From positions 62,001-126,000 of the forward strand of contig NZ_QYRN01000002.1 in assembly GCF_003583935.1 (NCBI RefSeq): DNA of 64,000 nucleotides. Reading direction: 5' to 3'. The stretch is from Aureimonas flava (lineage in GTDB: Bacteria; Pseudomonadota; Alphaproteobacteria; Rhizobiales; Rhizobiaceae). Shown piece by piece: positions 23,281-38,353 of this stretch (position 1 is the first letter of the stretch; each line of letters begins with the position of its first letter). A model generated the notes under the pieces. The model ran no database searches. It saw nothing but the letters and a program-made list of their open reading frames with translations, and had not been told where the DNA came from. Position numbers and translations under genes: made by a program.

Positions 23281-24258
23281 TCAGCGGAACAGGAGCGAGG
23301 ACAACTTGCGCCGGCCCTCCTTGCTGGCCGGGTCCATCGGCCCCCAGGCCTCGAAGAACTCCAGGAGCTTGCGGCGCGCGCCGTCGTCCTCGAAGGCGCG
23401 GTCGCGGCGCACGATCTCCAGGAGATGATCCGCCGCCGCCGCGCGGTCGCCCTCGGCCTGCGCGATCAGCGCGAGATCGAAGCGGGCCTGGTGATCGTCG
23501 GGATCGGCCGCGAGGCGCGCGCGCAGGGCCGTCGCGTCGCCGAGGCCCGCGATCTCGTCCAACAGCTTCAGCCGCGCGCGCACGGCGGCGAAGGCCGGGT
23601 CGTCCAGCACCTTCGGCGGCATCGCCTCGGCGACCGACTTCGCCCGCGCCGTGTCGCCGGCGGCCAGATAGCATTCGGCAAGCCCCGCCGCCGCCCGGGC
23701 GCTCTCCGGGTCGTGCTGGAGCACGGCGCCGAAGAGCTGGGAGGCCTCCGCCGCGTTTCCGGCCTTCAGGAACTCGTCCGCCTGGTCCAGCGCCTCCGCC
23801 AGCGGGTCGCCGCCCGGCGCCGGGCGGCCGGCCGTGAGCCGGTCGATGAAGGCCTTGACCTCGCTCTCTGGCAGCGCGCCCATGAACCCGTCCACCGGCT
23901 GGCCGTCCACAAAGGCGAACACGGCCGGGATCGACTGGACGCCGAGCTGGCCGGCGATCGACGGATGCTCGTCGATGTTCATCTTCACCAGCTTGACGCG
24001 CCCGCCGGCGGCCTGCACGGCGCGCTCCAGCACCGGCGTGAGCTGCTTGCACGGGCCGCACCAGGGCGCCCAGAAGTCGACCAGCACCGGCTGGTTGCGC
24101 GATTCGCGCACCACGTCGGCCGAGAAGTTGGCGGTGGTCGTATCCTTCACCAGTTCGCCGGCGGGCGCGGGCGCGGCGGGGCGCGCCGCGGCGGAGCCCG
24201 AGGCCGTGGTCTGCGCGCCGTAGCCGCCGAGCGGCGAGGCATAGGGATTGTTGCTCAT
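23281..24258 (-). CDS. Thioredoxin-TPR chaperone, CnoX/YbbN type
   Basis: A 325-residue protein with a thioredoxin domain (about 35-145) carrying the active site WAPWCGPC and cis-Pro in IPAVFAF, followed by a helical tetratricopeptide-like region (about 160-325). E. coli CnoX (YbbN) combines a holdase with redox protection and hands substrates to GroEL; there the first active-site Cys is absent, whereas here the full CXXC is kept, so disulfide exchange is possible. The ATG at 24258 starts the Ser/Asn/Pro/Ala-rich leader; upstream frame is unsupported. Heads the cluster with the LON-domain and Trm112-like genes. Confidence 0.92.
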   Translation of the reverse strand: MSNNPYASPLGGYGAQTTASGSAAARPAAPAPAGELVKDTTTANFSADVVRESRNQPVLVDFWAPWCGPCKQLTPVLERAVQAAGGRVKLVKMNIDEHPSIAGQLGVQSIPAVFAFVDGQPVDGFMGALPESEVKAFIDRLTAGRPAPGGDPLAEALDQADEFLKAGNAAEASQLFGAVLQHDPESARAAAGLAECYLAAGDTARAKSVAEAMPPKVLDDPAFAAVRARLKLLDEIAGLGDATALRARLAADPDDHQARFDLALIAQAEGDRAAAADHLLEIVRRDRAFEDDGARRKLLEFFEAWGPMDPASKEGRRKLSSLLFR

Positions 24259-24620
24259 CGGGACCGTCCGCGTCGCTGGGGCTCGCCGCCGGCCGCGACC
24301 GGGCAGGATCGCGATCGGCGGCAGCCGAAAGGGTGTCTCGGGCGGCCGGCATGGCCGTCCGGCTTCCCTGGGGATGACAGGTCGCCATATCGTGCGCAAG
24401 CGCCGCGCCATCAAGAACCGGACGCACCGCGCGGGCACCGCCACCGCCGCCGCGACCCGCCTTCGCCTCCGGCCCGCCCTCCTCCGGGGTCCTTCAGCCG
24501 CGACCGTCCGTGCCCCCTCGCGATCGTCGCCGCATCGTCATTTTCCCTGTTGCAATCGCCCGGCGGTTGGGCCATAAGCCACTCACCGCCGGAGCCCAGA
24601 GGGCACCGGACACGGAGCGG
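24259..24620. other. Intergenic region before tRNA-Gly
   Basis: About 360 bases without a supportable gene. It must hold the promoter of the CnoX cluster on the minus strand and that of the tRNA on the plus strand; the stretch near 24530-24580 is less GC-rich, with TTGCAATCG and CCATAAGCC about 20-70 bp before the tRNA. Confidence 0.4.
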
Positions 24621-24695
24621 GCGGGCGTAGCTCAGGGGTAGAGCACAACCTTGCCAAGGTTGGGGTCGTGGGTTCGAATCCCATCGCCCGCTCCA
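24621..24695 (+). tRNA. tRNA-Gly (anticodon GCC)
   Basis: A 75-nt cloverleaf: acceptor arm GCGGGCG paired with CGCCCGC, D-arm around GCTCAGGGGTAGAGC, anticodon stem CAACC/GGTTG with loop TTGCCAA (anticodon GCC), T-arm with GGTTCGAATCC, discriminator T and an encoded CCA end. It reads GGC and GGT glycine codons. Confidence 0.97.
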
Positions 24696-25004
24696 ATTTT
24701 CCTTCCCATCGACGACATGCGCACGGCAACTCTCCTGTTGCGTCTCGTGCAGCGTTCACAGCACCGGGTGCGGCAGGCCTGGATCGCTTTGCGTTCGACG
24801 CGGCGATAGGCCCGGCGTCGAGCAAGGCGTCAGGGTCTCCTTCGTTTCCGTGTGGGCGGCGCGGCATCGAGCCGCGAGGCTCGCCGCCTTCCGGCAGCGC
24901 AGGCTGTGCCGCTGCCTCGGAAAGGTCGGCGAGGCGCGGCGCGCTTCAGGCCGGCACGCGGCGGCGGTTCGCGAGACCGCGCGAGACCGACCGCCTGGGC
25001 GCCG
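24696..25004. other. Intergenic region between tRNA-Gly and the photolyase gene
   Basis: About 310 bases. An ATTTT run follows the tRNA directly. No repeat, integrase or other mobile element remnant is visible next to the tRNA, and no protein is recognised in the GC-driven open frames. Confidence 0.4.
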
Positions 25005-26543
25005 TCAGTAGGTTCCTGACGCTTCGAGCCCGTCCAGGAACGCGGCGGCGTCGCCGCGCATCGCCGCGACCTTCTCCTCCGCCATGCGGTGGAGCGTCGC
25101 GACCATGCGATCGGTGCGCCGGTTGGCGGCAAGGCGCGCCTCGTGACGTGCGACGAAGTCCCAGTAGAGGTAGTTGAACGGACAGGCGTCCTCGCCGGTG
25201 TGCTGCTTCACGTCGTAGCGGCAGCGGCGGCAGTAGTCCGACATCCTGTTGATGTAGTTGCCCGACGCCGCATAGGGCTTGGTGGCGAAGACGCCGCCGT
25301 CGGCATAGAGCACCATGCCGACGACATTGGGCATCTCCACCCATTCGAAGGCGTCGTGGTAGACCACGAGATACCATTCCTGCACCTCGCGCGGATCGAT
25401 GGCGGCCAGGAGGCAGAAGTTGCCAAGCACCATCAGGCGCTGGATGTGATGGGCATAGGCGTTCGCCGCCGTCTCGCGGATGGCCTGGGCCATGCAGTTC
25501 ATTCCGGTCTCGCCGGTCCAGAAGAAGTCCGGCAGCGGCCGGTCGGCCGCCAGTTCGTTGCGCGCGCCGTATCCCGGCATCTCGCGCCAGTAGACACCGC
25601 GCACGAACTCGCGCCACCCGATGATCTGGCGCACGAAGCCCTCCACCGCGTTGATCGGCGCATGGCCTTGCCGGTAGGCCGCGACGGCCCGCTCGCAGCA
25701 TTCGCGAGGGTTCAGAAGCCCGCAGTTGATCAGCGCCGAGAGATGGGAATGGAACAGAAGCGGCTCGCTCTGGCGCATGGCGTCCTCGTAGGTGCCGAAG
25801 CGGGGCAGCGCCTTCTGCGCGAACCAGTCGAGATACCGCAAAGCGTCGGCGCGCGTCACCGGGTAGTCGAAACCCTTCAGGGAGCCAAAATGGTTGCCGA
25901 AGCGGGCGGCGACGAGGCTCAGCACCTCGCTTGTCGTCCGGTCGGGTTCGACCACGGGTCGGACCGGAATCGGAATGCGCTTCGGCAGGCTTTCGCGGTT
26001 GTCCGCATCGTGGTTCCAGCGCCCGCCCTCCGGCCGTCCGTCCGCATCCATGAGATAGCCGGTGCGCTCGCGCATCCGCCGGTAGAAGCTCTCCATCAGG
26101 AGCGTGCGCCCGGTTCCCGCGAGTCGCGCGAAGTCCTCGTGCGAGCACAGGAAGCGATCGTCGGGCCGCACCTCGACGGGCACGCCGAACGCGCCCTCCC
26201 AGGACTTCGTCATCTCCAGGACCCGCCATTCTCCGGGCTCGGTGAGGACCACCGCCTGCGGCCCGTGGCGCTTCAGCGCATCCTCCAGCGCCTGCGTGAA
26301 CGAGCCCGCCCGACGTTCCCCGTCGAGCCGCAGGTAATCGACCGTGATGCCGTCGGCCTCCAGTTCGGCCGCGAAGTGGCGCATGGCGGAGAACAGGAAG
26401 GCGATCTTTCGCTGATGATGGCGCACGTAGGTCGCCTCCTCGTCGACCTCGGCCATCAGCACCACGTCGCCGGGCCCGAGGTCGCGGAGGGACGAGATGT
26501 CGCGCGATAGCTGATCGCCGAGAACGAAGCGCAGTCGGGTCAT
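25005..26543 (-). CDS. phrB: Iron-sulfur bacterial (6-4) photolyase / cryptochrome (FeS-BCP, PhrB type)
   Basis: A 512-residue flavoprotein expected to repair UV-induced (6-4) pyrimidine photoproducts with light. The N-terminal part (MTRLRFVLGDQLSRDISSLR) is the alpha/beta antenna domain, followed by the helical FAD-binding domain with FVRQIIGWREFVRGVYW and the conserved HHIQRLMVLGNF. Cysteines at residues 350, 438, 441 and 454, counted from the ATG at 26543, fall at exactly the positions of the [4Fe-4S] ligands I recall for Agrobacterium PhrB, which supports both family and start. The open frame upstream of 26543 is unsupported. Monocistronic and divergent from the amide operon. Confidence 0.93.
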   Translation of the reverse strand: MTRLRFVLGDQLSRDISSLRDLGPGDVVLMAEVDEEATYVRHHQRKIAFLFSAMRHFAAELEADGITVDYLRLDGERRAGSFTQALEDALKRHGPQAVVLTEPGEWRVLEMTKSWEGAFGVPVEVRPDDRFLCSHEDFARLAGTGRTLLMESFYRRMRERTGYLMDADGRPEGGRWNHDADNRESLPKRIPIPVRPVVEPDRTTSEVLSLVAARFGNHFGSLKGFDYPVTRADALRYLDWFAQKALPRFGTYEDAMRQSEPLLFHSHLSALINCGLLNPRECCERAVAAYRQGHAPINAVEGFVRQIIGWREFVRGVYWREMPGYGARNELAADRPLPDFFWTGETGMNCMAQAIRETAANAYAHHIQRLMVLGNFCLLAAIDPREVQEWYLVVYHDAFEWVEMPNVVGMVLYADGGVFATKPYAASGNYINRMSDYCRRCRYDVKQHTGEDACPFNYLYWDFVARHEARLAANRRTDRMVATLHRMAEEKVAAMRGDAAAFLDGLEASGTY

Positions 26544-27010
26544 CGTCGGATCGCCTTCTGGATGCGGCCACGTGAGCCTGGCGACAGGGGCAAATGCCGT
26601 TCCCCGTTCGTTCTTCAAGGGTGCTCGCGGGTGCCGCAATGCCGCACGCTTTTGAGCGACGCCCGCCTCGTCGGGCGACTGAGACGGAGGGCGGCAGGGA
26701 CGGAAGATTTTGCCACGCGTGTCGTCGTTCTCCGATGCCGTCACGAGGCGATGAATAGCAGGGGGGCGAACGCTGGGCGCACACCCCTTCGAGGCCGACA
26801 CGAAGCGACGCGTATCGACGGGCGTGATCTGCCTATTTTCTGCGCACGCCTTCGATCGCGGCAAGGCGCTTGACGCGGCGGGATGCGTGGCGCAAGGTCG
26901 GGGTCCATACCGGCCCTGTCTGCCGGACGGCAATCGAGCCCTGCCATCCCTTGCAACGCGTCGTCCGCCTGCCTGGGGTCGCGGGGCTTTTTCGTTTCGG
27001 GACGAATGGC
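26544..27010. other. Divergent intergenic region with the amiC leader
   Basis: About 470 bases between phrB and the amiC-like gene. It should hold both promoters, though no clear -35/-10 pair is seen. The right half carries a hairpin CGCCTT/AAGGCG (about 26847-26868), a small hairpin CCGGC/GCCGG (26910-26926) and the terminator-like structure described separately. Open frames through it show no recognisable protein. Confidence 0.5.
26938..26992 (+). terminator. Terminator-like leader structure before amiC
   Basis: GCCCTGCCATCCC (26938-26950) can pair with GGGGTCGCGGGGC (26975-26987), 12 pairs with two G-U wobbles in the outer half region and one C-C mismatch, enclosing a 24-nt loop and followed directly by TTTTT. 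It ends 18 nt before the GTG start of the amiC-like gene. As the operon encodes an AmiR-type ANTAR protein, this is a good candidate for the terminator that AmiR would override. The canonical ANTAR pair of hexaloop hairpins (A1, G4) could not be found upstream by eye. Confidence 0.55.
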
Positions 27011-28105
27011 GTGGAACGGCACATCGAGATCGGCGTCCTCTTCTCGCGCTCCGGCCACTACGAGCGCCTCAGCAACGCGTGCCGGGACGGCGCGATGAGC
27101 GGGATTGCGGCGGTCAACGAAGACCCGGGGCGCCGGGTCCGCTTCCGAGCCGTGGAACGCGATCCCGGCGGCCGGATCGAGCGCTACGCCCCGCTCTGCG
27201 CGGACCTCCTCTCGAACACGCGGGCCCGCCACGTGGTCGGCTGCATCACCTCGTGGAGCCGCAAGGAGGCGATCCCGACGCTGGAACGGCACGGCGGCCT
27301 CCTCTGGTATCCCGCGCCCTACGAGGGCTTCGAGGCGAACGACCACGTCGTCTACACCAACGCCTCTCCGAACCAGCACCTGGTGCCGCTTGTCGCCCAT
27401 GTCGCGCGGCGCTACGGCCCGCACGCCTTCCTGCTCGGCTCGAACTACATCTGGGGCTGGGAGATGAACCGCATCGCGCGCGACCTCGTGGCCGACGCCG
27501 GCGGCGAGGTGCGGGGAGAACGCTATCTGCCTCTGGGCGACACGGACGTGTCCCGCCTGATCGCCGAGATCCGCGCCGGCCTGCCCGACTTCGTCCTGAA
27601 CAACCTTATCGGCCCCTCCTCCTACGCCTTCTACGAGGCCTATGCGGCGCTCGGCCGGGAGGACGCGCGGTTCCGCGCCGACCGGCGGCCGGTGGTCTCG
27701 TGCAACCTCACCGAGGCCGAACTCTGCGCGATCGCGCCGCACGGCGAAGGCCACCTGTCGAGTCTTGCCTTCGTGCACGACGGCGCGGCGGGTCCGCGCT
27801 CCTCGTTCGAGGCGGCGGCCCATGCGGCGGTGACCGTGCTCGCGGACGCGATCGAGGCGGCCGGCACGGACGAGCCGTCCGCCGTCCGCCGGGTCCTCGG
27901 ACAGGGCACGCACCGCACGGCGCTCGGGACGATCCGCATCGACGCGCGCACCCAGCACGCCGAACTGCCGATGACCATCGGCCGCATCCGGGGCTCGGGC
28001 TTCGAGGTGCTGGAGACCAGCGCGGGGGGCGTCGAGCCGGACCCCTATCTCTCGCACTACGACCCCGTGGCGACCTTCCGCCCGCCGCTGAGGCTGGTGC
28101 GATGA
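27011..28105 (+). CDS. amiC: AmiC-like amide sensor / urea- and amide-type substrate-binding protein
   Basis: A 364-residue protein of the type 1 periplasmic-binding fold (Peripla_BP_5/AmiC/UrtA/FmdD group). It resembles Pseudomonas AmiC strongly at VVGCITSWSRKEAIPTLERH, LLWYPAPYEGFE, VVYTNASPNQH and FLLGSNYIWGWEMNRI. No signal peptide is visible, so like AmiC it is probably a cytoplasmic ligand sensor that sequesters AmiR until an amide binds. The GTG at 27011 gives the AmiC-like start ERHIEIGVLFSRSG; an ATG at 26870 would put a terminator inside the coding region. The stop overlaps the amiR-like start as ATGA. Confidence 0.87.
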   Translation: MERHIEIGVLFSRSGHYERLSNACRDGAMSGIAAVNEDPGRRVRFRAVERDPGGRIERYAPLCADLLSNTRARHVVGCITSWSRKEAIPTLERHGGLLWYPAPYEGFEANDHVVYTNASPNQHLVPLVAHVARRYGPHAFLLGSNYIWGWEMNRIARDLVADAGGEVRGERYLPLGDTDVSRLIAEIRAGLPDFVLNNLIGPSSYAFYEAYAALGREDARFRADRRPVVSCNLTEAELCAIAPHGEGHLSSLAFVHDGAAGPRSSFEAAAHAAVTVLADAIEAAGTDEPSAVRRVLGQGTHRTALGTIRIDARTQHAELPMTIGRIRGSGFEVLETSAGGVEPDPYLSHYDPVATFRPPLRLVR

Positions 28106-28707
28106 CCCGGCGCCCGCGCATCCCCAATCTCGGCGGCGCCAAGGCCGTGCTGCTCCACCGCGAGCATGCCTCCATCGACATGCTGATCCGCCAGCTCCGC
28201 GCGATCGGGCTGGAGATCGAGGGCGCCTGGCCGGAACTGCCCGCCGCGACCGCCGATGCGGACTTCCTGTTCTTCGACGTCGACCACGGCTTCGACGAAC
28301 AGTTCCCGTGGCGGCCGGGCGAGGCGCCGATGCCGCTGGTCGCGCTGATCGGCTCGGAGGCGCCCGGGCGCATCGAATGGGCGCTGTCGCTGAAGGCGGA
28401 CGCCCAGATCGTGAAGCCGGTCGGCAGTGCCGGCGTCTACGCCGCCCTGCTGATCGCCCGGCGCGCCTTCGACGAACGGCGGCGGCTGGAAGGCGAGATC
28501 GCGGACCTGCGCGAGCGCCTGGACCAGCGCCGGACAATCGTGCGCGCCGTGGCCGCGCTGTCGGGCGCCGCGGTCGGCGAGGAGCAGGCCTATGCGCAGC
28601 TGCGGGCGCTCGCCATGAGCTGGCAGGTCACGCTCGAGGAAGCGGCGCACCACGTGGTGGCGCTCAAGAACCGGGAGGTAGCCCATGAGCGCCCTCGCCG
28701 GGCCTGA
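28102..28707 (+). CDS. amiR: AmiR-like ANTAR-domain transcription antiterminator
   Basis: A 201-residue protein with a pseudo-receiver domain (about 1-125) that lacks a normal phosphorylation site cluster, a charged coiled-coil (AFDERRRLEGEIADLRERLD, about 128-147), and a C-terminal three-helix ANTAR domain (EEQAYAQLRALAMSWQVTLE to the end). This is the AmiR architecture, which binds nascent RNA and prevents termination. Placement directly after an amiC-like gene (4-bp overlap) makes an AmiC/AmiR pair very likely. The C-terminus overlaps the next gene by 23 nt. Confidence 0.87.
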   Translation: MTRRPRIPNLGGAKAVLLHREHASIDMLIRQLRAIGLEIEGAWPELPAATADADFLFFDVDHGFDEQFPWRPGEAPMPLVALIGSEAPGRIEWALSLKADAQIVKPVGSAGVYAALLIARRAFDERRRLEGEIADLRERLDQRRTIVRAVAALSGAAVGEEQAYAQLRALAMSWQVTLEEAAHHVVALKNREVAHERPRRA

Positions 28708-29587
28708 CGCCCGCACGCCCGCCGCCGGGACCGGCGGCGGCGGCGTCTTCCGCCGCCTGCTGCGCCGCCGGCTCGCGGTGCTTGGCCTCCTCATGATCGC
28801 CGTGGTGGTGCTGGCGGCGGCCTTCGCGCCCTGGATCGCCCCGTTCGATCCGAACGAGCAGTTCTTCGACGGGCTGTCGCTCGAGGGCGCGCCCCTCCCG
28901 CCGTCGGCCACCTACTGGCTCGGCACCGATCTCCTGGGGCGCGATCTCCTGTCGCGCCTCCTGTTCGGGGCCCGCAACTCCCTGGTGATCGGGGTCGCCG
29001 CCAACGGCGCGGCGCTCCTGATCGGCACCATGGTCGGCGTCGTGGCCGGCTATGTCCGCGGCTGGCTCGGCGCGGTTCTGATGCGCTTCACCGACCTGAT
29101 GATGGCCTTTCCCGCGCTTCTCCTGGCGATCTGCCTGGCCGCCGTGCTGCGGCCGAGCCTCTGGATCGTCGCCCTGGTCATCGCCCTGGTGAACTGGGTG
29201 CAGGTCGCCCGAGTCGTCCATGCCGAGACGCGCTCGCTTGCGGAGCGCGAGTTCATCCAGGCCGAGGTGACGCTGGGTGCGGGGGGTGCGCGCATCCTGT
29301 TCCGCCACGTCATGCCGCACCTCTTCTCCACCGTGATCGTCTACGGCACGCTCGGCATCTCGACCACGGTTCTGCTGGAGGCGACGCTGTCCTTTCTGGG
29401 CGTCGGCGTGCAGCCGCCGGACGCGTCCTGGGGCAACATCATCTTCGAGAACCAGACCTATTTCCAGGCGGCGCCCTGGCTGGTGTTCTTTCCGGGCGCA
29501 GCGATCCTGCTCCTCGCCCTCGCCTTCAACCTCGTGGGCGACGCGCTGCGCGACGCGCTCGACCCGACCGAGGAGGGGCGCGGCTGA
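28685..29587 (+). CDS. ABC transporter permease, DppC/OppC type
   Basis: Inner-membrane subunit of a peptide/nickel-class (PepT) importer, 300 residues, about six membrane helices. Family marks are the N-terminal FRRLLRRRLAVLGLLMIAVV helix, YWLGTDLLGRDLLSRLLFGA, and the cytoplasmic EAA loop near REFIQAEVTLGAGGARILFR. GGGAGG precedes the ATG, which lies inside the 3' end of the amiR-like gene. With the next four genes it completes an importer plus amidase. Order permease C before permease B is less usual than dppB-dppC. Confidence 0.93.
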   Translation: MSALAGPDARTPAAGTGGGGVFRRLLRRRLAVLGLLMIAVVVLAAAFAPWIAPFDPNEQFFDGLSLEGAPLPPSATYWLGTDLLGRDLLSRLLFGARNSLVIGVAANGAALLIGTMVGVVAGYVRGWLGAVLMRFTDLMMAFPALLLAICLAAVLRPSLWIVALVIALVNWVQVARVVHAETRSLAEREFIQAEVTLGAGGARILFRHVMPHLFSTVIVYGTLGISTTVLLEATLSFLGVGVQPPDASWGNIIFENQTYFQAAPWLVFFPGAAILLLALAFNLVGDALRDALDPTEEGRG

Positions 29588-30507
29588 TGGCGATCTATCT
29601 GGCGCGGCGTCTGGTCCAAGCGGTGCTGATCCTGCTGGGCGTCAGCCTCGTGACCTTCGCGCTGCTCTATCTCCTGCCGGCCGATCCGGCACGGCAGATC
29701 GCCGGGCGCACCGCCTCGGCCGCGCAGGTCGCCGGCATCCGCGCCCAGCTCGGCCTCGACCAGCCCTTCCCCGTGCAGTACGCCCGCTATCTCGGCCGTC
29801 TCGTCCAGGGCGATCTCGGCCGCTCCTACCTCCAGCGGTCCGAGGTCGCCGAGCTGATCCGGGCGCGGCTTCCGGCGAGCCTCCTCCTGATGCTGGCCGC
29901 GATCCTGTGCGAACTCGCGCTTGGCCTGACCATGGGCATGCTGGCCGCCGTCCGGCGGGGACGGTCGAGCGACCACGCGCTGATGGTGGCCTCCTTCGTC
30001 ACGGTCTCGGCCCCGCAGTTCGTGGTCGGCCTCCTGCTTCTCTACGTGTTCGCGGTGCGGCTCGGCTGGTTCCCGATCGGCGGCTACGGCACGTTCGCCC
30101 ACCTCGTCCTGCCGGCGCTCACCCTCGGCATCCTCGGCGCCGGCTGGTACGCCCGGATGATGCGCTCCTCCATGGTGGACGTCCTGCGCCAGGACTACAT
30201 GCGCACAGCCCGCGCCAAGGGCCTCCGGCGCTGGACCATCCTCGCCCGCCACGCCCTGCCCAACGCGATCCTGCCCGTGGTCGCGATGATCGGCATCGAC
30301 ATCGGCCTCTTCATGAGCGGCATCGTGGTGGTGGAGAGCGTGTTCGGCTGGCCCGGCATCGGCCAGCTCGCCTGGCAGGCCATCCAGCGCGTCGACCTAC
30401 CCGTCATCATGGGGGTCACGCTGGTCTCGGCGGTCGCCATCGTCCTCGGCAACCTCCTGGCCGACCTCGTCGCCCCCTTCGTCGATCCCCGCATCAAGCT
30501 CCAGTAG
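29587..30507 (+). CDS. ABC transporter permease, DppB/OppB type
   Basis: A 306-residue partner permease. It begins MAIYLARRLVQAVLILLGVS and has the family features LRRWTILARHALPNAILPVV (EAA loop), VESVFGWPGIGQLAWQAI and DLVAPFVDPRIKLQ. Start and preceding stop share one base (TGATG), indicating coupled translation with the first permease. Confidence 0.93.
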   Translation: MAIYLARRLVQAVLILLGVSLVTFALLYLLPADPARQIAGRTASAAQVAGIRAQLGLDQPFPVQYARYLGRLVQGDLGRSYLQRSEVAELIRARLPASLLLMLAAILCELALGLTMGMLAAVRRGRSSDHALMVASFVTVSAPQFVVGLLLLYVFAVRLGWFPIGGYGTFAHLVLPALTLGILGAGWYARMMRSSMVDVLRQDYMRTARAKGLRRWTILARHALPNAILPVVAMIGIDIGLFMSGIVVVESVFGWPGIGQLAWQAIQRVDLPVIMGVTLVSAVAIVLGNLLADLVAPFVDPRIKLQ

Positions 30508-30522
30508 GAAGGAAGCCCGCCC

Positions 30523-32139
30523 ATGAGGTCCCTGTTCAAGCGGAGCGCCGCGGCGCTCGCCATCACCGCCGCGCTTCTCTCCGCGCCCTCCGCCGCCTCG
30601 GCGCAGGACGGGAACGCGATCACGGTCACCTACAAGGACGACATCGCCACGCTCGATCCGGCGATCGGCTACGACTGGCAGAACTTCTCGATCATCAAGG
30701 CCCTGTTCGACGGGCTGATGGACTACGAGCCCGGCACCGCGACGCTGAGGCCGGGCCTTGCGGAAAGCTACGAGATCTCGCCCGACGGAAAGGTCTTCAC
30801 CTTCAAGCTGCGCGACGGCGTTAAATTCCACAACGGCCGCGCGATGACCGCGGACGACGTGAAATACTCCTTCGAGCGCACCGTGAACCCCGCCACCCAG
30901 TCGCCGGGCGCGGGTTTCCTCGGCTCGATCGAGGGCTTCGACGCCATGCAGTCCGGCACGGCCACCGCGCTCTCCGGCGTCAGGATCGTCGATCCGAGGA
31001 CGGTGGAGGTGATGCTCTCGCGTCCCGACGCGACCTTCCTCTCGGTGATGGCGCTGAACTTCTCCTTCATCGTGCCCAGGGAGGAGGTCGAGAAGTCGGG
31101 CGCCGACTTCGGGCGCAATCCGGTCGGCACCGGCGCCTTCAAGCTCGCCGAATGGACGCTCGGCCAGCGCCTTGTCCTTGAGAAGAACCCGGACTACTAC
31201 CGCGAGGGCGCGCCCAAGCTCGAGGGCATCACCTTCGAGATCGGCCAGGAGCCGGTGGTCTCGCTGCTGCGGGTCCAGAACGGCGAGGTGGACGTGCCGG
31301 GCGACGGCATCCCGCCCGCCAAGTTCCGCGAGGTGATGGGCAATCCCGAAGAGGCGGCCCGGGTGGTGGAGGGCGTACAGCTCCACACCGGCTACATCAC
31401 CATGAACACCAAGGCCGCCCCCTTCGACGACCTGAAGGTGCGCCAGGCCGTCAACATGGCGATCAATAAGGAGCGCATCGTCCAGATCATCAACGGACGC
31501 GCGACGCCCGCCAACCAGCCGCTGCCGCCCACCATGCCGGGCTACGTCGAGGGCTTCGAAGGCTACAGGTACGACGTCGAGGCCGCCAAGAAGCTCCTGG
31601 CGGAGGCCGGCCACGAGGGCGGCTTCGAGACCGAACTCTTCGTCGCCAACGTCGATCCGCAGCCGCGCATCGCGCAGGCGATCCAGCAGGACCTCGCGGC
31701 GGTCGGCATCAAGGCCTCGATCCAGAGCCTCGCGCAGGCCAACGTGATCGCCGCCGGCGGCTCGGCCGAGGGCGCGCCGATGATCTGGTCGGGCGGCATG
31801 GCCTGGATCGCCGATTTCCCCGATCCGTCGAACTTCTACGGTCCGATCCTCGGCTGCGCCGGCGCGGCGGACGGCGGCTGGAACTGGGCGAAGTACTGCA
31901 ACGAGGCGCTGGACCGGAAGGCTGCCGACGCCGACGCCATGGTGGATCCGGCCAAGGCCGCCGAGCGGGCCGCCGCCTGGGGCGAGGTCTACCGGCAGGT
32001 GATGGCCGACGCGCCTTGGGTGCCGGTGTTCAACGAGAAGCGCTACACGATGCGCTCCGCCCGGATGGGCGGCGACGACGCGCTCTATGTCGACCCGGTC
32101 AACACGCCGATGAACTACCGCTACGTCGAGACCCGGTAA
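30523..32139 (+). CDS. ABC transporter substrate-binding protein (SBP_bac_5, peptide/nickel class)
   Basis: A 538-residue periplasmic binding protein with a Sec signal peptide (about 1-28, cleaving near ASAQDGN). Recognisable are ITVTYKDDIATLDPAIGYDW, FKLRDGVKFHNGRAMTADDV, FGRNPVGTGAFKLAEWTLGQ and VDVPGDG. This cluster binds peptides, nickel complexes, opines, glycosides and other compounds; next to an acetamidase/formamidase and an AmiC/AmiR pair, the ligand may be a short amide-containing compound, but that is inference. AAGGAAG precedes the ATG. Confidence 0.93.
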   Translation: MRSLFKRSAAALAITAALLSAPSAASAQDGNAITVTYKDDIATLDPAIGYDWQNFSIIKALFDGLMDYEPGTATLRPGLAESYEISPDGKVFTFKLRDGVKFHNGRAMTADDVKYSFERTVNPATQSPGAGFLGSIEGFDAMQSGTATALSGVRIVDPRTVEVMLSRPDATFLSVMALNFSFIVPREEVEKSGADFGRNPVGTGAFKLAEWTLGQRLVLEKNPDYYREGAPKLEGITFEIGQEPVVSLLRVQNGEVDVPGDGIPPAKFREVMGNPEEAARVVEGVQLHTGYITMNTKAAPFDDLKVRQAVNMAINKERIVQIINGRATPANQPLPPTMPGYVEGFEGYRYDVEAAKKLLAEAGHEGGFETELFVANVDPQPRIAQAIQQDLAAVGIKASIQSLAQANVIAAGGSAEGAPMIWSGGMAWIADFPDPSNFYGPILGCAGAADGGWNWAKYCNEALDRKAADADAMVDPAKAAERAAAWGEVYRQVMADAPWVPVFNEKRYTMRSARMGGDDALYVDPVNTPMNYRYVETR

Positions 32140-32140
32140 C

Positions 32141-33085
32141 ATGTGCAAGGCCTGCGACTACACGATCCACGGCCGCCAGCACCATTTCGGCTGGGACAAC
32201 GCGCTGGAGCCGGCGCTGCGCGTGGCGCCGGGGGCGACGATCGAGTTCGAGTGCCGGGACAGCTCGGCCGGACAGATCACGCCCGCCTCCACGGCGTCGA
32301 GCGTCACCACGCTCGACTTCTCCCGCATCAACCCCGTGTCGGGCCCGATCTTCGTGGACGGGGCGGAGCCGGGCGACGCGCTCAAGGTGACGATCGAGGG
32401 CTTCAAGCCGTCCGGCTTCGGGTGGACGGCCAACATTCCCGGTTTCGGGCTCCTGGCGGACCAGTTCACCGAACCCGCGCTCACCCTCTGGAACTACGAC
32501 GCGGCCTCGCTCGAGCCCGCCGCCTTCGGGCGGCACGGGCGCGTGCCGCTGAAGCCCTTCGCCGGCACCATCGGCAACGCGCCCGCCGAGCCGGGGCATC
32601 ATTCCGTGGTTCCGCCGCGCCGCGTGGGGGGCAATCTCGACATCCGGGACCTTTCGGCCGGCACCGTGCTCCACCTTCCGGTGGAGGTGGCCGGCGCCCT
32701 GTTCTCGGTGGGCGACACCCACGCCGCCCAGGGCGACGGCGAGGTCTGCGGCACCGCGATCGAGAGCCCGATGAACGCGGTGCTGACGCTCGACCTCGTG
32801 AAGGGGGCGAACCTTCGGATGCCGCGCTTCACCACGCCCGGTCCCGTCACCCGCCATCTCGACGCCAAGGGCTACGAGGTGACCACCGGCGTCGGACCCG
32901 ACCTGATGACCGGCGCGCGCCAGGCGGTCGCCGACATGGTGGAGCTTCTGGCGGGGCGCTACAATCTCGCGCCCGTGGACGCCTACATGCTGGTCTCGAC
33001 CTGCGGCGACCTTCGCATCTCGGAGATCGTCGACATGCCGAACTGGGTGGTCTCCTTCTACTTCCCGAGGGTCGTGTTCGAGTGA
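32141..33085 (+). CDS. Acetamidase/formamidase family protein
   Basis: A 314-residue enzyme of the FmdA/AmdA family (PF03069), which hydrolyses formamide, acetamide or related short amides to ammonia and the acid. Typical segments are the N-terminal HHFGWDNALEPALRVAPGAT, FSRINPVSGPIFVDGAEPGD, FSVGDTHAAQGDGEVCGTAI and TTGVGPDLMTGARQAVADMV. It follows the binding protein by one nucleotide and its stop overlaps the ATPase start. As the only degradative enzyme of the operon it is the likely destination of the imported substrate, releasing nitrogen. Confidence 0.92.
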   Translation: MCKACDYTIHGRQHHFGWDNALEPALRVAPGATIEFECRDSSAGQITPASTASSVTTLDFSRINPVSGPIFVDGAEPGDALKVTIEGFKPSGFGWTANIPGFGLLADQFTEPALTLWNYDAASLEPAAFGRHGRVPLKPFAGTIGNAPAEPGHHSVVPPRRVGGNLDIRDLSAGTVLHLPVEVAGALFSVGDTHAAQGDGEVCGTAIESPMNAVLTLDLVKGANLRMPRFTTPGPVTRHLDAKGYEVTTGVGPDLMTGARQAVADMVELLAGRYNLAPVDAYMLVSTCGDLRISEIVDMPNWVVSFYFPRVVFE

Positions 33086-34866
33086 CGGCGGCGTCCGCGC
33101 GAACCGCTGCGGCCGGCGCACCGGCGCCGGCCCGCGACACCGTCCTGGCGGTGGAGGACCTGTCGATCTCGGTCGGCGTCGGCGAACGGGCCCGGACGCT
33201 GGTGGACGGGCTGAGCTTCTCGCTCGCCCGAGGCGAGACGCTGTGCATCGCCGGCGAATCGGGCTCGGGCAAGTCGCTCACCTCGCTCGCGGTGATGGGC
33301 CTGCTGCCGCGACCGGGACCGGTGGTCTCGGGCGGCCGGATCCGGCTCGGCGGGGTAGAGCTGACCCGCCTGCCCGAGCGCGAGATGCGCCGCGTGCGCG
33401 GCGACAGGATCGCGATGATCTTCCAGGAGCCGATGACCTCGCTCAACCCGGTGCTCACCGTGGGCCGCCAGCTCACGGAGGCCATCGAGGCCCATCGCGA
33501 CGTCTCGGCGGCCGAGGCGCGCGCCCTGGCGCTGGAGGCGCTCCGATCGGTGCGCATTCCGGAAGCCGAGCGCCGGCTGCGCCAGCATCCGCACGAATTG
33601 TCGGGCGGCATGCGCCAGCGGGTGATGATCGCGATGGCGCTGGCGCTCGAGCCCGACGTCCTGATCGCCGACGAGCCGACCACGGCGCTCGACGTCACCA
33701 TCCAGGCCCAGGTCCTCGGCCTCCTGCGCGAAATCCAGGCCGCGCGCGGCACCGGGCTGATCCTGATCACCCACGACATGGGCGTGGTGGCCGAGATGGC
33801 GGACCGCGTGGTCGTGATGCGCGGGGGCCGGGCAGTGGAGACGGGGCCGGTGGGTCCGCTCTTCGCCGTCCCGCGCGAGCCCTACACCCGGGCGCTGCTC
33901 GCCGCCGTGCCGCGCATGGGCGACGGACGCCGCCCCGCGGCGCCGGCGTCGGCCGCGCCGGTGGCCGAGATCCGGGATCTCGAGGTCCGCTTTCCGCTGA
34001 AGGGCGGCGTGCTCGGCCGCACGGTGGCCGAGGTCCATGCCGTGTCGGGCCTCTCCTTCGACGTGCCGGCCGGCGGCACGCTGAGCCTCGTGGGCGAGAG
34101 CGGGTGCGGCAAGTCCACGACGGCCAAGGCGATGGCCGGCCTCGTTCCCTACCGGGGCCGGATCTCCATCGCCGGCCGGCCGGCGCAGGGCCTTTCCGCG
34201 CCGGAGCGCAAGGCCCTGCGCCGCGACGTGCAGATGATCTTCCAGGATCCGTTCGCCTCGCTCGACCCGCGCTGCCGCGTCGGCGATCTTGTGGGCGAGC
34301 CGCTCGCGATTCACGGCATGGGCTCGGCCCGCGAGCGCGAGGAGCACGTCGCCGGCCTGTTCGGCCGCGTCGGCCTTTCGGCGGACGACATGCGCCGCTA
34401 TCCGCACCAGTTCTCGGGCGGCCAGCGCCAGCGCATCTGCATCGCCCGGGCGCTCGCCCTGCGGCCCCGGCTGATCATCGCCGACGAGAGCGTCTCCGCG
34501 CTGGACGTTTCGGTGCAGAAGCGGGTGCTGGAGCTCCTGCGCGAGCTGCAGGACGAGTTCGGCATCGCCTATCTCTTCATCAGCCACGACATGGCGGTGG
34601 TGGAGAACATCTCGGACCGCGTCGCCGTGATGTATCTCGGGCAGATCGTGGAGCTCGGCACAGCCGCGCAGGTCTTCGGCGATCCGCGCCACCCCTATAC
34701 GAGGCGGCTGATCGAGGCGGTGCCGGTGCCCGATCCCACCCGCCGGCGCGGTGCGTTCCCTCTGCTCGCGGGCGACATCCCGAGCGCCGTCCGGCCGCTC
34801 GGCGATCCGCCGGCAAGGCTTCCTCTGGTGGATCGCGGCGGCGGCCACCTCGTCGCCCCGTTCTGA
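33082..34866 (+). CDS. Fused ABC transporter ATPase (DppD-DppF type, two nucleotide-binding domains)
   Basis: A 594-residue protein with two complete ATPase domains that energise the permease pair. Domain 1: Walker A GESGSGKS, signature LSGGMRQRV, Walker B VLIADEPTTALD. Domain 2: Walker A GESGCGKST, signature FSGGQRQRI, Walker B LIIADESVSALD. Each domain ends in the oligopeptide-type C-terminal region (EPYTRALLAAVP and HPYTRRLIEAVPVP). Start is GTG at 33082, overlapping the amidase stop (GTGA). Fusion of the two ATPases is common in this transporter class in rhizobia (for example GsiA-like). Confidence 0.93.
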   Translation: MTAASARTAAAGAPAPARDTVLAVEDLSISVGVGERARTLVDGLSFSLARGETLCIAGESGSGKSLTSLAVMGLLPRPGPVVSGGRIRLGGVELTRLPEREMRRVRGDRIAMIFQEPMTSLNPVLTVGRQLTEAIEAHRDVSAAEARALALEALRSVRIPEAERRLRQHPHELSGGMRQRVMIAMALALEPDVLIADEPTTALDVTIQAQVLGLLREIQAARGTGLILITHDMGVVAEMADRVVVMRGGRAVETGPVGPLFAVPREPYTRALLAAVPRMGDGRRPAAPASAAPVAEIRDLEVRFPLKGGVLGRTVAEVHAVSGLSFDVPAGGTLSLVGESGCGKSTTAKAMAGLVPYRGRISIAGRPAQGLSAPERKALRRDVQMIFQDPFASLDPRCRVGDLVGEPLAIHGMGSAREREEHVAGLFGRVGLSADDMRRYPHQFSGGQRQRICIARALALRPRLIIADESVSALDVSVQKRVLELLRELQDEFGIAYLFISHDMAVVENISDRVAVMYLGQIVELGTAAQVFGDPRHPYTRRLIEAVPVPDPTRRRGAFPLLAGDIPSAVRPLGDPPARLPLVDRGGGHLVAPF

Positions 34867-35149
34867 AGACGGCCCGCGAGCCGGCGTCCCGCGCGCATAC
34901 CGGACGGATCGCCGTCGGGGGCGACACGCTCGCCGTCCAGGGCGTCGGCAATCGGCTGGCGGGAACGCCGTCGCCCGTCCGACGCAGGCCTATTGCGCAC
35001 CGATCACGACGGTCGGGGGATCGGCGCCACCTGCGGCCAGCCCTCCCGCAACCCATCTGCTCGCCCATTAGCCGGTACGGATCGCACGCATCCAATCCCC
35101 CGAGCCAGCCTGGCCCAGACCCTGCCTCGCCTATCGACGCGTCCCGAGC
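34867..35149. other. Intergenic region after the amide operon
   Basis: About 280 bases between the convergent ATPase and lacI genes. No gene or strong terminator hairpin was identified by eye. Confidence 0.4.
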
Positions 35150-36226
35150 CTAGGGCGTGCTGCCCGGGGCCTCGCATGCCGTGGATCGGCGGGGCACCAG
35201 AACCGGGGACGGCGCCGCGCGCCGCCGCGCCGGTGCGCCCAGTCCCGCGATCGCCAGAAGCCGGTGGACCGCGCGCGTCCCGACCTCGTCCAGCCTCAGG
35301 TCCACCGCCGTCAGCGGCGGTTCGGACTCCATCGCGCGCAGCCCGTTGTAGCGCGTGGCGATCCTGAGATCGGCGGGCACCGAGCGGCCCAGCGAGCGGG
35401 CCGCCTGCACCGCGCCGGTCGCAAAGGCGTCCACCAGCGCCAGGATGCCGTCGATGCCTGGATCCGACGCCAGGAGCCCCGCGCAGGCCCGGGCCGCGCC
35501 CTCCTGGCCCCCGCCCTCGGGCAGGCGCAGCACCACGGGCTCCGAGCCGCTGCGCCGCGCGTGGTTGCGATAGGCTGCTTCCGCGCTCGCGTAGGAGGTT
35601 CGGTCGGCGTCGCCCACCACCAGCGCCATCCGCGCGCAGCGCCCGGCGAGGTGCGCGACCAGAAGCTCGGCCGTCGCCTCCGACTGGAGGTCGACCTCCT
35701 CGATCCCGGCCATGCCGCCCGGAACGCGACCGATCGCGACCGTGGGCACGCCGCGCGCCGCCAGCGCGGCGAGCGTCGGATCATCGCGCGAGGGCTCGAT
35801 CACCAGCGCGCCGTCGATGTCGAGGTCGAGCCGCGACAGGTCGGCGCCGGCGATCGGGGGGACCAGCATCAGCGCCACGCCCTGCTCCATCGCGGCCAGC
35901 GAGGCGGCGGCGGCGATCTCCATCATGAAGCCGAGGCGCGACGGGCCGGCCGACACGGCGAAGGGCATGGACGAGAAGATCGCGAAGGTCGCCGCGCCCC
36001 CGGAGCGCAGCCGGCGGGCGCTGAGATTGGGCCGGTAGCCAAGTTCCAGCGCCGCCTTCTCGACCCGGATGCGGGTCTGGGCGTCGACGGGGCGCCGTCC
36101 GGTGATCGCGTTGGAGGCGGTGGAGGGCGACACGCCGGCGAGCTCGGCCACCTGGACGATGGTGACGCGCCGTGCGCCGCCGGCGGAGCGCGGCCTTGCC
36201 TGTTGAATGTTCACCTGGGTCGTCAC
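35150..36226 (-). CDS. LacI-family transcriptional regulator
   Basis: A 358-residue repressor: helix-turn-helix with VTIVQVAELAGVSPSTASNA and the hinge LGYRPNLSARRLRSG (about residues 20-75), then a sugar-binding-like effector domain. It diverges from the arylsulfotransferase-like gene and importer, and two near-identical operators lie in the gap, one after each divergent promoter. It therefore most likely represses both itself and that operon. LacI regulators usually sense sugars, so the effector could be a glycoside or sulfated sugar, but this is inference. The C-terminus is Arg/Pro/Ala-rich. Confidence 0.93.
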   Translation of the reverse strand: MTTQVNIQQARPRSAGGARRVTIVQVAELAGVSPSTASNAITGRRPVDAQTRIRVEKAALELGYRPNLSARRLRSGGAATFAIFSSMPFAVSAGPSRLGFMMEIAAAASLAAMEQGVALMLVPPIAGADLSRLDLDIDGALVIEPSRDDPTLAALAARGVPTVAIGRVPGGMAGIEEVDLQSEATAELLVAHLAGRCARMALVVGDADRTSYASAEAAYRNHARRSGSEPVVLRLPEGGGQEGAARACAGLLASDPGIDGILALVDAFATGAVQAARSLGRSVPADLRIATRYNGLRAMESEPPLTAVDLRLDEVGTRAVHRLLAIAGLGAPARRRAAPSPVLVPRRSTACEAPGSTP

Positions 36227-36329: not shown

Positions 36330-36384
36330 ATAACGTGCCGACTTGGCTTCCGCCCCGGCACGTCGATCGCTGGAAAGTCCGCCG

Positions 36385-37527
36385 ATGTCCGTTTCCCCCG
36401 CCCCCTCCCCGCCGGCCGCCGACCAGACCACGCTGCGGCGCCGCGGCGTCGGCCTGACGGCCCTCGATGCGGCGCGCTCGGCCGGCGGCTACACCCTGTT
36501 CGCGCCCCAGACCGGGGGCGGCGCGGTGTATCTCGTTGACATCCGGGGCGAGGTGGTCCACCGCTGGCAGATGCCGGTCCGGCCGGGCCGCGACGCGGTG
36601 ATCCTGCCCAACGGCCATCTCGGCTACAACGGCAGCCACCCCGACCCCTTCCGCCCCTATCCGGCCTGGCCGCTCTGGCGCGGCGGCGACTTCTACGAGG
36701 CGACGCCGGAGGGCAAGATCGTCTGGCGGTTCGAGGATCCGCGCCACCACCACGATGCCCGCTGGCTCGACAACGGCGACCTTCTCTACGCGACGGTGGA
36801 GCCGCTGTCCGCCGAGCTGTCGGCCCGCGTCGCCGGGGGCGATCCGCGCCGCGACGCGCCGGACGGCATCGTCCAGGGCGACGTGATCCGCCAGGTGAAC
36901 CGGCAGGGCGAGACCGTCTGGCGCTGGGCGGCGGGCGACCACCTCCCGCCCGAGGACTACCCCGTCCATCCCATCTTCGACCGGCGCCACTGGCCCTTCG
37001 TCAACGGGCTCGGCGAAACCCGCGACGGGCTGGTGCTGATGAGCCTGCGCGTCACCTCCGGCATCATCGCTGTGGACCGCGACACCGGCGCCGTCGCATG
37101 GCGCATCGGCGCCGACCGGCTGGCTCAGCAGCACACGCCGATCGAGATGGCCGACGGCTCGATCCTGTGCTTCGACAACGGCAACCTGCGCCCCGGCGTC
37201 ACCGCGCCCTTCTCGCGCGCCGTGCAGGTCGACCCCGGCACCGGCCGCACGGTCTGGGAATACGCCGACCCGCTGAAGCCCGCCTTCTTCTCACCCTACA
37301 TGGGCAGCGCCCAGCGCCTGTGGAACGGCAACACCTTCATCTGCGAATCGGCGTTCGGCCGGCTGTTCGAGGTCACCCCGGAGGGCGACGTCGTGTGGGA
37401 ATACGTGATCCCCTTCTTCGGCGAATATCCCGACGACGGCGCGCGCGACTTCGCCGCCGGGGTCCAGAACAGCGTGTTCCGGGCCCATCGCTACGAGGCC
37501 GCGCAGATCCCCTGGCTCAGGCCCTGA
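36385..37527 (+). CDS. Arylsulfotransferase-like (ASST) beta-propeller protein
   Basis: A 380-residue protein made of repeated short blade motifs (VYLVDIRGEVVHRWQMP, FYEATPEGKIVWRFEDP, VIRQVNRQGETVWRWAAG, AVQVDPGTGRTVWEYADP, LFEVTPEGDVVWEYVIPF), a pattern of arylsulfotransferase/ASST family beta-propellers. A His-rich DPRHHHDARWLDNG loop could hold the catalytic His. Classical AssT is periplasmic, but no signal peptide is visible from the chosen ATG (36385, GGAAAG upstream), so the product may be cytoplasmic. It is first in an operon with an aliphatic-sulfonate/taurine-type importer. Family membership is fairly sure, catalytic activity is not. Confidence 0.75.
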   Translation: MSVSPAPSPPAADQTTLRRRGVGLTALDAARSAGGYTLFAPQTGGGAVYLVDIRGEVVHRWQMPVRPGRDAVILPNGHLGYNGSHPDPFRPYPAWPLWRGGDFYEATPEGKIVWRFEDPRHHHDARWLDNGDLLYATVEPLSAELSARVAGGDPRRDAPDGIVQGDVIRQVNRQGETVWRWAAGDHLPPEDYPVHPIFDRRHWPFVNGLGETRDGLVLMSLRVTSGIIAVDRDTGAVAWRIGADRLAQQHTPIEMADGSILCFDNGNLRPGVTAPFSRAVQVDPGTGRTVWEYADPLKPAFFSPYMGSAQRLWNGNTFICESAFGRLFEVTPEGDVVWEYVIPFFGEYPDDGARDFAAGVQNSVFRAHRYEAAQIPWLRP

Positions 37528-37540
37528 AAGGAGACGGTCG

Positions 37541-38353
37541 ATGACCATACCGGCCGCCGCCCCTTCGCGCACGCCCCGGGCCTTCGGCGTCCGGCGCCTC
37601 CTGCCGCGCCTCGGCTCGGCCGGCGCGCTGTATTCCTTCGCCTTGGTCATCGGCGCCTGGTGGCTCGCGACCGTGCTGGCGCCGGTGTCCTCCACCATCC
37701 TGCCGACGCCGCTCGACACGGCGCGCGCATTCGCCGAGATGGCCGGAAGCGGCGTCCTCTGGACCGACCTCGCCGCCTCGCTCTCGCGCGCGGCGATCGG
37801 CTTTGCGATCGGCGCGGGGCTCGGGGTCGCCGTCGGCCTCCTGACCGGACGCACCCGGCTGTTCCGCCTTCTCCTCAACCCGTTCCTGGCGGTGATGCGG
37901 CCGATCCCGGCGATCGCGCTGGTGCCGGTGGCGATCGTCTGGTTCGGCATCGGCGAGGGGTCGAAGTATTTCGTGATCGCCTACACCGTGTTCCTGGCGG
38001 TCTGGTTCAACACCCACCAGGGCATGGACTACGTGCCCGACATCTTCGTGCGCGCCTCGCGCTCGCTGGCGACCTCGCGGCTTCGCGAGTTCTTCCTGGT
38101 GGTGGTGCCGGCGGCCGCCCCGCACATTCTGGCCGGCATCCGGCTCGGCGTCGCGCTCGCCCTCCTCAGCCTCGTGGCGGCCGAGCTCACCGGCGCCTCC
38201 TCGGGCATCGGCTACCGCCTCCAGGAGGCGCGCCAGTACATCCGCACCGACCGCATGTTCGCGCTCCTGATCGAGCTCGGGCTGATCGGCGCGGTGATCG
38301 ACGCGGCCGTGTACCGGCTCGGCCGTCGCATCGTCCACTGGCAGCAGGCGTGA
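37541..38353 (+). CDS. ABC transporter permease, SsuC/TauC type
   Basis: A 270-residue permease with about six helices. Landmarks are AGSGVLWTDLAASLSRAAIG, NPFLAVMRPIPAIALVPVAI followed by VWFGIGEGSKYFVI, and ELTGASSGIGYRLQEARQYI. This is the sulfonate/nitrate/taurine (NitT) importer class. AAGGAGA precedes the ATG by 7 nt; the gene starts 13 nt after the ASST-like stop. Confidence 0.92.
   Translation: MTIPAAAPSRTPRAFGVRRLLPRLGSAGALYSFALVIGAWWLATVLAPVSSTILPTPLDTARAFAEMAGSGVLWTDLAASLSRAAIGFAIGAGLGVAVGLLTGRTRLFRLLLNPFLAVMRPIPAIALVPVAIVWFGIGEGSKYFVIAYTVFLAVWFNTHQGMDYVPDIFVRASRSLATSRLREFFLVVVPAAAPHILAGIRLGVALALLSLVAAELTGASSGIGYRLQEARQYIRTDRMFALLIELGLIGAVIDAAVYRLGRRIVHWQQA

Follow-up and report, generated by a model that had tools for sequence, protein, structure and literature searches.

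A conserved leader with a candidate non-canonical ANTAR target at the head of a probable amide uptake and hydrolysis operon in Aureimonas flava

Here we describe an operon of Aureimonas flava, an alphaproteobacterium of the Rhizobiaceae, in which a sensor and antiterminator pair of the AmiC/AmiR type stands ahead of a peptide-class ATP-binding cassette (ABC) importer and an FmdA-type amidase, behind a conserved leader RNA. It lies in a stretch of 64,000 nucleotides (nt) of contig NZ_QYRN01000002.1 (positions 62,001 to 126,000), which we call the window and whose first letter is position 1 in what follows. Judged from the sequence and its relatives, it is likely that this is an autoregulated operon for the uptake and hydrolysis of an amide, probably an L-amino acid amide, in which AmiC gates antitermination through an ANTAR target of non-canonical form. 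The original prediction, drawn from the letters of the window, had held that the sensor and antiterminator control the import and hydrolysis of an amide; its anatomy stands, since the AmiC/AmiR pair does head the importer and amidase genes and the leader does hold a terminator with an overlapping hairpin, while the supposed novelty of the combination does not.

All seven genes lie on the plus strand between 27011 and 34866, joined by overlaps of 1-23 nt or separated by gaps of 1-15 nt (Table 1), and every domain named here exceeds its Pfam cut-off, so that coordinates and Pfam together uphold the earlier account of seven co-directional, tightly packed genes of these families. It had also been asked beforehand whether the second gene belongs to the ANTAR family at all, and its product carries both AmiR_N and ANTAR above cut-off. 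The solved relatives of this protein at E values up to 0.1 are AmiR (1qo0), 1s8n, NasR (4akk) and EutV (6wsh), and the gene adjoins one for an AmiC-type partner. One boundary had to be moved: the sensor gene had been given a start at 26870, where a TTG coincides with the predicted -35 box and the terminator intervenes before the GTG at 27011, whose codon aligns with the starts of relatives and is probably the true start.

The locus set consists of the best 80 among at least 579 confirmed stretches that a search with only the amidase as query returned. When the gene order was compared across these, as had been proposed, all seven genes were found in the same order and on the same strand in 73 of the 80, and since the loci had been fetched with FmdA alone the recurrence of the order is not due to chance. 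The other seven are three loci broken by contig ends (L010, L035, L076) and four in which FmdA occurs without the cassette (L022, L049, L057, L059); amiC and amiR are both present in 74 of the 80, and two of the remaining six are contigs that end before reaching them. The flanking genes have little in common, the largest flank family among open reading frames of at least 150 amino acids being an ABC ATPase that occurs near 18 of the 73 loci, on either side and on either strand, and conserved neighbours were for this reason dropped as a clue to the substrate.

The leader element first became visible when the regions ahead of amiC from eight close relatives were aligned, and the leader set comprises 75 sequences, namely 74 loci and the window. 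Reading from the 5′ side, TTGAC stands at the distance expected of a -35 box in 61 of 74 leaders, and next come an upstream hairpin (P1), a second hairpin with a loop of six nt (P2) and an intrinsic terminator. P1, in most leaders of the form CCGGC-7 nt-GCCGG, has a pairing that is supported by covariation, four of its five pairs being changed on both sides among 41 leaders, with 83% of cells paired; for P1 and terminator pairs taken together 91.4% of cells are paired in these leaders, against 87.1% in shuffled leaders and at most 54.6% when the alignment is slid by 1-3 columns. The terminator stem has a minimum free energy (MFE) of -29.5 kcal/mol in the window and a median of -27.1 kcal/mol, with a median z of -4.6 against mononucleotide shuffles, and in the MFE structures of 73 of 74 leaders the terminator arm is paired to the final 14 nt of the stem segment. 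The 3′ GCC of P2 is at the same time the first part of the 5′ arm of the terminator in 74 of 75 leaders by pattern, so the second hairpin overlaps the terminator; the remaining leader, L053, lacks the P2 pattern and is matched weakly by the leader model described below (E 0.014). P2 and the terminator are mutually exclusive on paper, and the leader is conserved.

What sets P2 apart is its loop. The known ANTAR targets are two hexaloop hairpins, each with an A at position 1 (A1) and a G at position 4 (G4), according to the reports on EutV (PMC3369931) and NasR (PMC7496416). In the eut leader, as PMC3369931 describes it, changing any of the four A1/G4 bases or deleting P1 reduces induction, and the second hairpin overlaps the terminator (also in PMC8934654). 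The operon resembles the EutV, NasR and NasT systems in its ANTAR domain and in this overlap; it differs from the EutV and NasR targets in having one conserved hexaloop, with A1 and without G4. Across the leaders position 1 is A in 73 of 74, and position 4 is never G (C in 43, A in 18, T in 13). Position 5 is a purine in all 74 leaders of this main set, which form one clade, and the purine rule is broken outside it at least in L182, L189, L192 and L199.

The protein departs from EutV at a matching place. According to PMC8934654, G4 stacks on Tyr164 of EutV and bonds with Arg142, Lys149 and Glu160. Mapped onto EutV, the 75 AmiR sequences of the window's clade keep the Arg and a Tyr or Phe without exception and a Glu or Asp in 69, and at the Lys149 position they have V (71), T (3) or A (1) and never Lys. 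This position corresponds, by our own mapping, to K347 of NasR, where a change to Arg lowers binding about tenfold (PMC7496416). Elsewhere in the RNA site R143, Y/F164 and R168 are kept in 75/75, M172 in 74/75 and W174 in 72/75; of the EutV contact residues N173, R175 and R177, the middle one persists in 27/75 and the outer two have mostly given way to others. Because P2 breaks the dual A1/G4 hexaloop rule, the clade may recognise RNA differently.

In the mechanism that we propose, transcription would begin just upstream of P1 and, without inducer, would end at the leader terminator, while low read-through would supply basal AmiC and AmiR, with AmiC keeping AmiR inactive. An amide on AmiC would release AmiR, which would then bind P2, whose 3′ strand is the 5′ arm of the terminator; with that strand held by AmiR the terminator would be unable to form, and transcription would run on into amiC, amiR and the genes for the importer and the amidase. 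More AmiC and AmiR would be made, closing a positive loop. The amide would be taken in by the binding protein with its permeases and fused ATPase, and the FmdA-type enzyme would release ammonia from it. Nitrogen control would be added by a TGC-N11-GCA palindrome ahead of the promoter, which resembles an NtrC site (GC-N11-GC). It occurs in 19 of the 61 leaders with TTGAC, against 3.6 expected from dinucleotide shuffles for a pattern that was picked after viewing the alignment, and 10 of the 19 sit at -40/-41. The binding of AmiR to P2, the gating by AmiC, the class of substrate and the nitrogen-linked activation are the steps that we infer.

A covariance model of the leader, R1, was derived from 41 of the sequences, including that of the window. 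On 17 of 34 cassette loci left out of it, R1 found the leader in the right place in all 17, at E values of 5e-8 to 0.13, of which 14 were below 0.01. At E values up to 1 it found nothing in the four FmdA loci without the cassette, in two cut loci or in the nas region, and in the genome of A. flava the window leader, itself part of the model, is the sole strong site, the next having an E value of 0.43. Among 101 genomes of the order, five of six R1 matches outside the own genome precede amiC-amiR homologues (L091 does not), and of 49 further AmiR stretches R1 matched 24 at E values up to 0.05. Three of the loci, L180, L194 and L195, have an R1 leader and amiC-amiR with no FmdA found in the stretch. 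In these three amiC-amiR precede another gene of the SBP_bac_5 type, scoring 221-241 bits to the family model; perhaps they represent a sister importer with another enzyme.

These distributions bear on the idea that the terminator is read through in some other way, by transcription-translation coupling at the 5′ end or by a small-molecule RNA switch, with AmiR having drifted or acting elsewhere. The position of the leader at the predicted 5′ end, the conserved pairing of P1 and the replacement of N173, R177 and often R175 would all suit such an arrangement. We nevertheless regard it as quite unlikely, for the leader was not found beside FmdA in the four loci without amiC-amiR and accompanies amiC-amiR where no FmdA was found, and Rfam searches (E values up to 5 on positions 24000-36000 of the window, and the gathering threshold on six loci) gave no regulatory RNA above threshold, only weak matches at chance level.

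A wider comparison suggests a link between the lysine and the loop. The NasT protein of the own genome retains the Lys, and at its locus (L083, about 8700-8770, minus strand) a simple scan found three A1/G4 hairpins, with loops that include AAGGAC and ATCGAC; they precede the next operon gene, by eye a nitrate-type binding protein, and their overlap with a terminator was likewise judged by eye. This locus would serve as an internal control. Several AmiR loci that bear the lysine gave A1/G4 hairpins over terminators, and dual A1/G4 elements with a T-run occur at L154, L163 (far upstream), L165, L167 and L177, all with lysine, and at the lysine-less L160. As a separate observation, the lysine-bearing loci L163, L164, L166, L165, L167 and L168 have an A1/G4 hairpin over a terminator between amiR and a UrtA-like gene, and L163, L164 and L166 have a second such hairpin near amiC. 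When the top-scoring hairpin was taken for each AmiR, leaving out 12 of 46 proteins (5 with lysine, 7 without) that had no candidate, G4 was present at 6 of 8 lysine loci and at 5 of 26 lysine-less loci (Fisher p 0.007, with related rows, since L163, L164 and L166 are one genus). Not all of the top candidates are leaders; L182 is better fitted by eye by another hairpin without G4, L156 and L162 are weak, and at the lysine loci L175 and L177 the top loop lacks G4, yet a G4 hairpin is also present.

Several observations weigh against the mechanism proposed above. A sigma-70 scan of the window gave no site, and shuffles of the window leader, taken whole, fold as well as the leader itself (z -0.85). 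The stem of P2 has 3 bp that are invariant among the leaders, and for that reason P2 gives no covariation. The eut system needs P1, P2 and all four A1/G4 bases, so with a P2 that lacks G4 and no canonical P1 as the best hairpin of any leader the RNA contact could differ from the one that we propose; when only the best-scoring upstream hairpin of each of the 74 leaders is considered, 4 have a loop of 6 nt and none of these has A1 with G4. R1 also matches, at E values of 0.0002-0.03, leaders before a UrtA-like gene at four loci whose AmiR bears the lysine (L167, L168, L175, L177), and because of these matches the leader architecture is not private to the cassette. The link between lysine and G4, which has exceptions and takes no account of kinship, is suggestive: lysine-less loci with G4 include L152, L159, L162, L170 and L182 and, outside that comparison, both L160, where the dual A1/G4 element with its T-run lies at about 1344, about 7 kb upstream of amiC-amiR, and AmiR has Thr at the Lys149 position, and a Klebsiella copy (L197), where the loop AATGAA has G4 by eye and residue 150 is Leu, not Lys.

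It is plausible, if on balance doubtful, that the operon works as described with its AmiR still under the ordinary dual-hairpin rule, P1 and P2 being tolerated variants (the former often with a 7-nt loop and G4, the latter with A1) and specificity unchanged. The seven-nt loops of P1 do have G at position 4 in 36 of 37 cases, the protein retains R143, Y/F164, R168 and, with one exception, M172, the overlap of P2 with the terminator is that of eut, and R1 reaches those four leaders of lysine-bearing loci. Against it, 13 of 74 leaders gave no P1, the best-scoring P1 loop varies from 3 to 9 nt (in the window the P1 scan favoured a hairpin overlapping P1), P2 is without G4 throughout, and the lysine position is V, T or A in every sequence. 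The bolder proposal is that the clade is a re-coded ANTAR group whose target is one hexaloop without G4 (A1-N-N-not-G-purine-N), placed at the extreme 5′ end of the mRNA that encodes AmiR itself. Loss of the lysine would have altered which bases are read, and NasT (A1/G4) and AmiR could then operate in one cell without cross-talk. This we put forward tentatively and think rather unlikely, its odds being lowered by the lysine-less loci with G4 and by the R1 matches in lysine-bearing loci.

With regard to what AmiC-gated antitermination would control, we turn to the sensor and the binding protein. The AlphaFold model of the sensor (predicted local distance difference test, pLDDT, 92.8) finds the urea-binding protein 8tg1 as its best Foldseek match and AmiC (1pea) after it, and the sensor reaches 174.1 bits where the NCBIfam cut-off for UrtA is 492.75. 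In 75 sequences Ser81, Tyr100 and Tyr146 are always kept, and at the sites of C, Y and R in AmiC every one of them carries a tryptophan (W99, W148 and W150); these positions line the AmiC pocket. Since the three tryptophans replace the residues of AmiC, the ligand is probably not acetamide. The binding protein scores 904.6 bits to 8upi, against 216 for the next solved protein, and is 76% identical to it in a Foldseek alignment from an AlphaFold model of low confidence (pLDDT 59.3); by sequence we consider it a close orthologue of the 8upi group. The title of 8upi names a periplasmic peptide binding protein of Mesorhizobium sp. AP09 bound to aminoserine. Work of Smith, Kaczmarski, Jackson and others in Biochemistry in 2024 reportedly found that this protein binds L-amino acid amides and solved it with L-serinamide, and its abstract is said to count the protein among some 610 members of SBP_bac_5 whose genes share conserved operons with those of FmdA_AmdA amidases; it is not known to treat a leader RNA. 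On this reported binding and the 8upi title, the substrate is probably an L-amino acid amide.

The original prediction had suggested formamide, acetamide or urea. Given the aminoserine of the 8upi title and the differences in the sensor, such molecules may be too small. That the cargo is a short aliphatic amide such as formamide or acetamide, as PMC13209695 also supposes, we think unlikely. That paper gives acetamidase activity in a lysate of Klebsiella KOS9, with no control strain given in the section concerned, and the enzyme family and the conserved Ser81, Tyr100 and Tyr146 would agree; the peptide class of the importer, the aminoserine, the invariant tryptophans and an enzyme that scores 119.4 bits where the NCBIfam formamidase equivalog NF045496 requires 500 all argue the other way. 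That the cluster imports glutathione, as the names given to plasmid copies in some records imply, is very improbable. GsiA is the best NCBIfam match of the ATPase, and PMC5506382 names a ‘glutathione ABC-transport system’ on pKPN-307 that is perhaps the same cluster. The scores nevertheless stay below cut-off (GsiA 703 against 1077 bits, GsiB 209 against 594), an amidase and amiC-amiR would be odd company for glutathione, and 8upi is far closer to the binding protein than any other solved protein.

Among the whole genomes sampled the module is scattered: of 289 genomes from the class, 9 encode the AmiR protein (E values up to 1e-10), and of 101 from the order, 7 contain the leader (E values up to 0.01), the own genome being counted in both. 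The seven genes also occur in identical order on four plasmid stretches (Klebsiella, two Rhizobium and Sulfitobacter). The Klebsiella stretch, L197 (NZ_CP041100.1, 7992-15824), lies beside fec genes, and its 8.1-kb stretch is covered to at least 80% by 735 plasmid records and by 6 of 5,426 E. coli genomes. Some records of near-identical copies name the genes as the glutathione importer GsiA/GsiB/GsiC.

The combination of genes, which had been called one not seen described, is in print. PMC13209695 (2026) reports an 8-kb operon on a Klebsiella plasmid with an amidase, amiC, amiR and four ‘cluster 5’ ABC genes, with copies over 99% similar on plasmids of Enterobacteriaceae, and acetamidase activity in the lysate of cells grown with acetamide; the single such gene of the strain lies in that operon, and the enzyme is called AmiE. 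From this description we infer that the operon is the L197 cassette, which has the seven genes of the window in identical order and is a distant copy, its sensor 39% identical and its enzyme annotated to the acetamidase/formamidase family rather than as AmiE. The operon type is therefore widespread and partly described already.

Pseudomonas aeruginosa AmiC/AmiR (1pea, 1qo0) likewise has a sensor of the same fold beside AmiR_N and ANTAR, a leader terminator and an amidase in the operon. The A. flava operon differs in its peptide-class ABC importer and FmdA-type enzyme, in that amiC and amiR come first, behind their own terminator, and at conserved positions of the sensor and of the ANTAR RNA site. 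Literature searches returned no description of the leader, and it is the leader RNA switch, breaking the recognition rule of its regulator class, that looks new relative to print.

Table 1. Positions in the window of the leader elements and genes of the operon
Feature	Position	Strand	Remarks
TGC-N11-GCA palindrome	26830..26846	+	40 nt upstream of the -35 box
Predicted promoter, TTGACG - 17 nt - CAAGGT	26870..26898	+	Transcription start near 26905-26907 by eye
Hairpin P1, CCGGC-7 nt-GCCGG	26910..26926	+	At the predicted mRNA 5′ end
Hairpin P2, GGC[AATCGA]GCC, putative AmiR target	26929..26940	+	Pattern in 74/75 leaders
Intrinsic terminator	26938..26992	+	5′ arm GCCCTG holds the P2 3′ strand; T-run 26988-26992
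AmiC-like sensor, Peripla_BP_5	27011..28105	+	Pfam 284 bits; GTG start; no signal peptide by eye
AmiR-like antiterminator, AmiR_N + ANTAR	28102..28707	+	Pfam 53.1 vs 27 and 34.1 vs 27.3 bits
Peptide-class permease, OppC_N + BPD_transp_1	28685..29587	+	Pfam
Peptide-class permease, DppB/OppB type, BPD_transp_1_N + BPD_transp_1	29587..30507	+	Pfam
SBP_bac_5 binding protein	30523..32139	+	Pfam 337 bits; near relative of 8upi
FmdA_AmdA family amidase, 314 aa	32141..33085	+	PF03069, 195 vs 27 bits
Fused double ABC ATPase, OppD-OppF/GsiA type	33082..34866	+	ABC_tran in two stretches + oligo_HPY

The surroundings of the operon hold a divergent gene upstream (25005-26543, minus strand) for a photolyase-related protein, DPRP, and a tRNA gene (24621-24692, plus strand) 2.4 kb upstream. 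Downstream, at 35150-36226 on the minus strand and 36343-38353 on the plus strand, there are a LacI-type regulator, an arylsulfotransferase-like match in a putative open reading frame and a further ABC permease.

If the leader works as proposed, ANTAR proteins are able to do without the dual A1/G4 hexaloops, and because the published searches for ANTAR targets that we consulted take these as the rule, targets may have been missed. The leaders with P2 alone would offer natural tests for the single-hexaloop model of ANTAR binding put forward in PMC8934654. The cluster carried by many Klebsiella plasmids, named in some records as a glutathione importer, would then more probably be a cassette for amide use.

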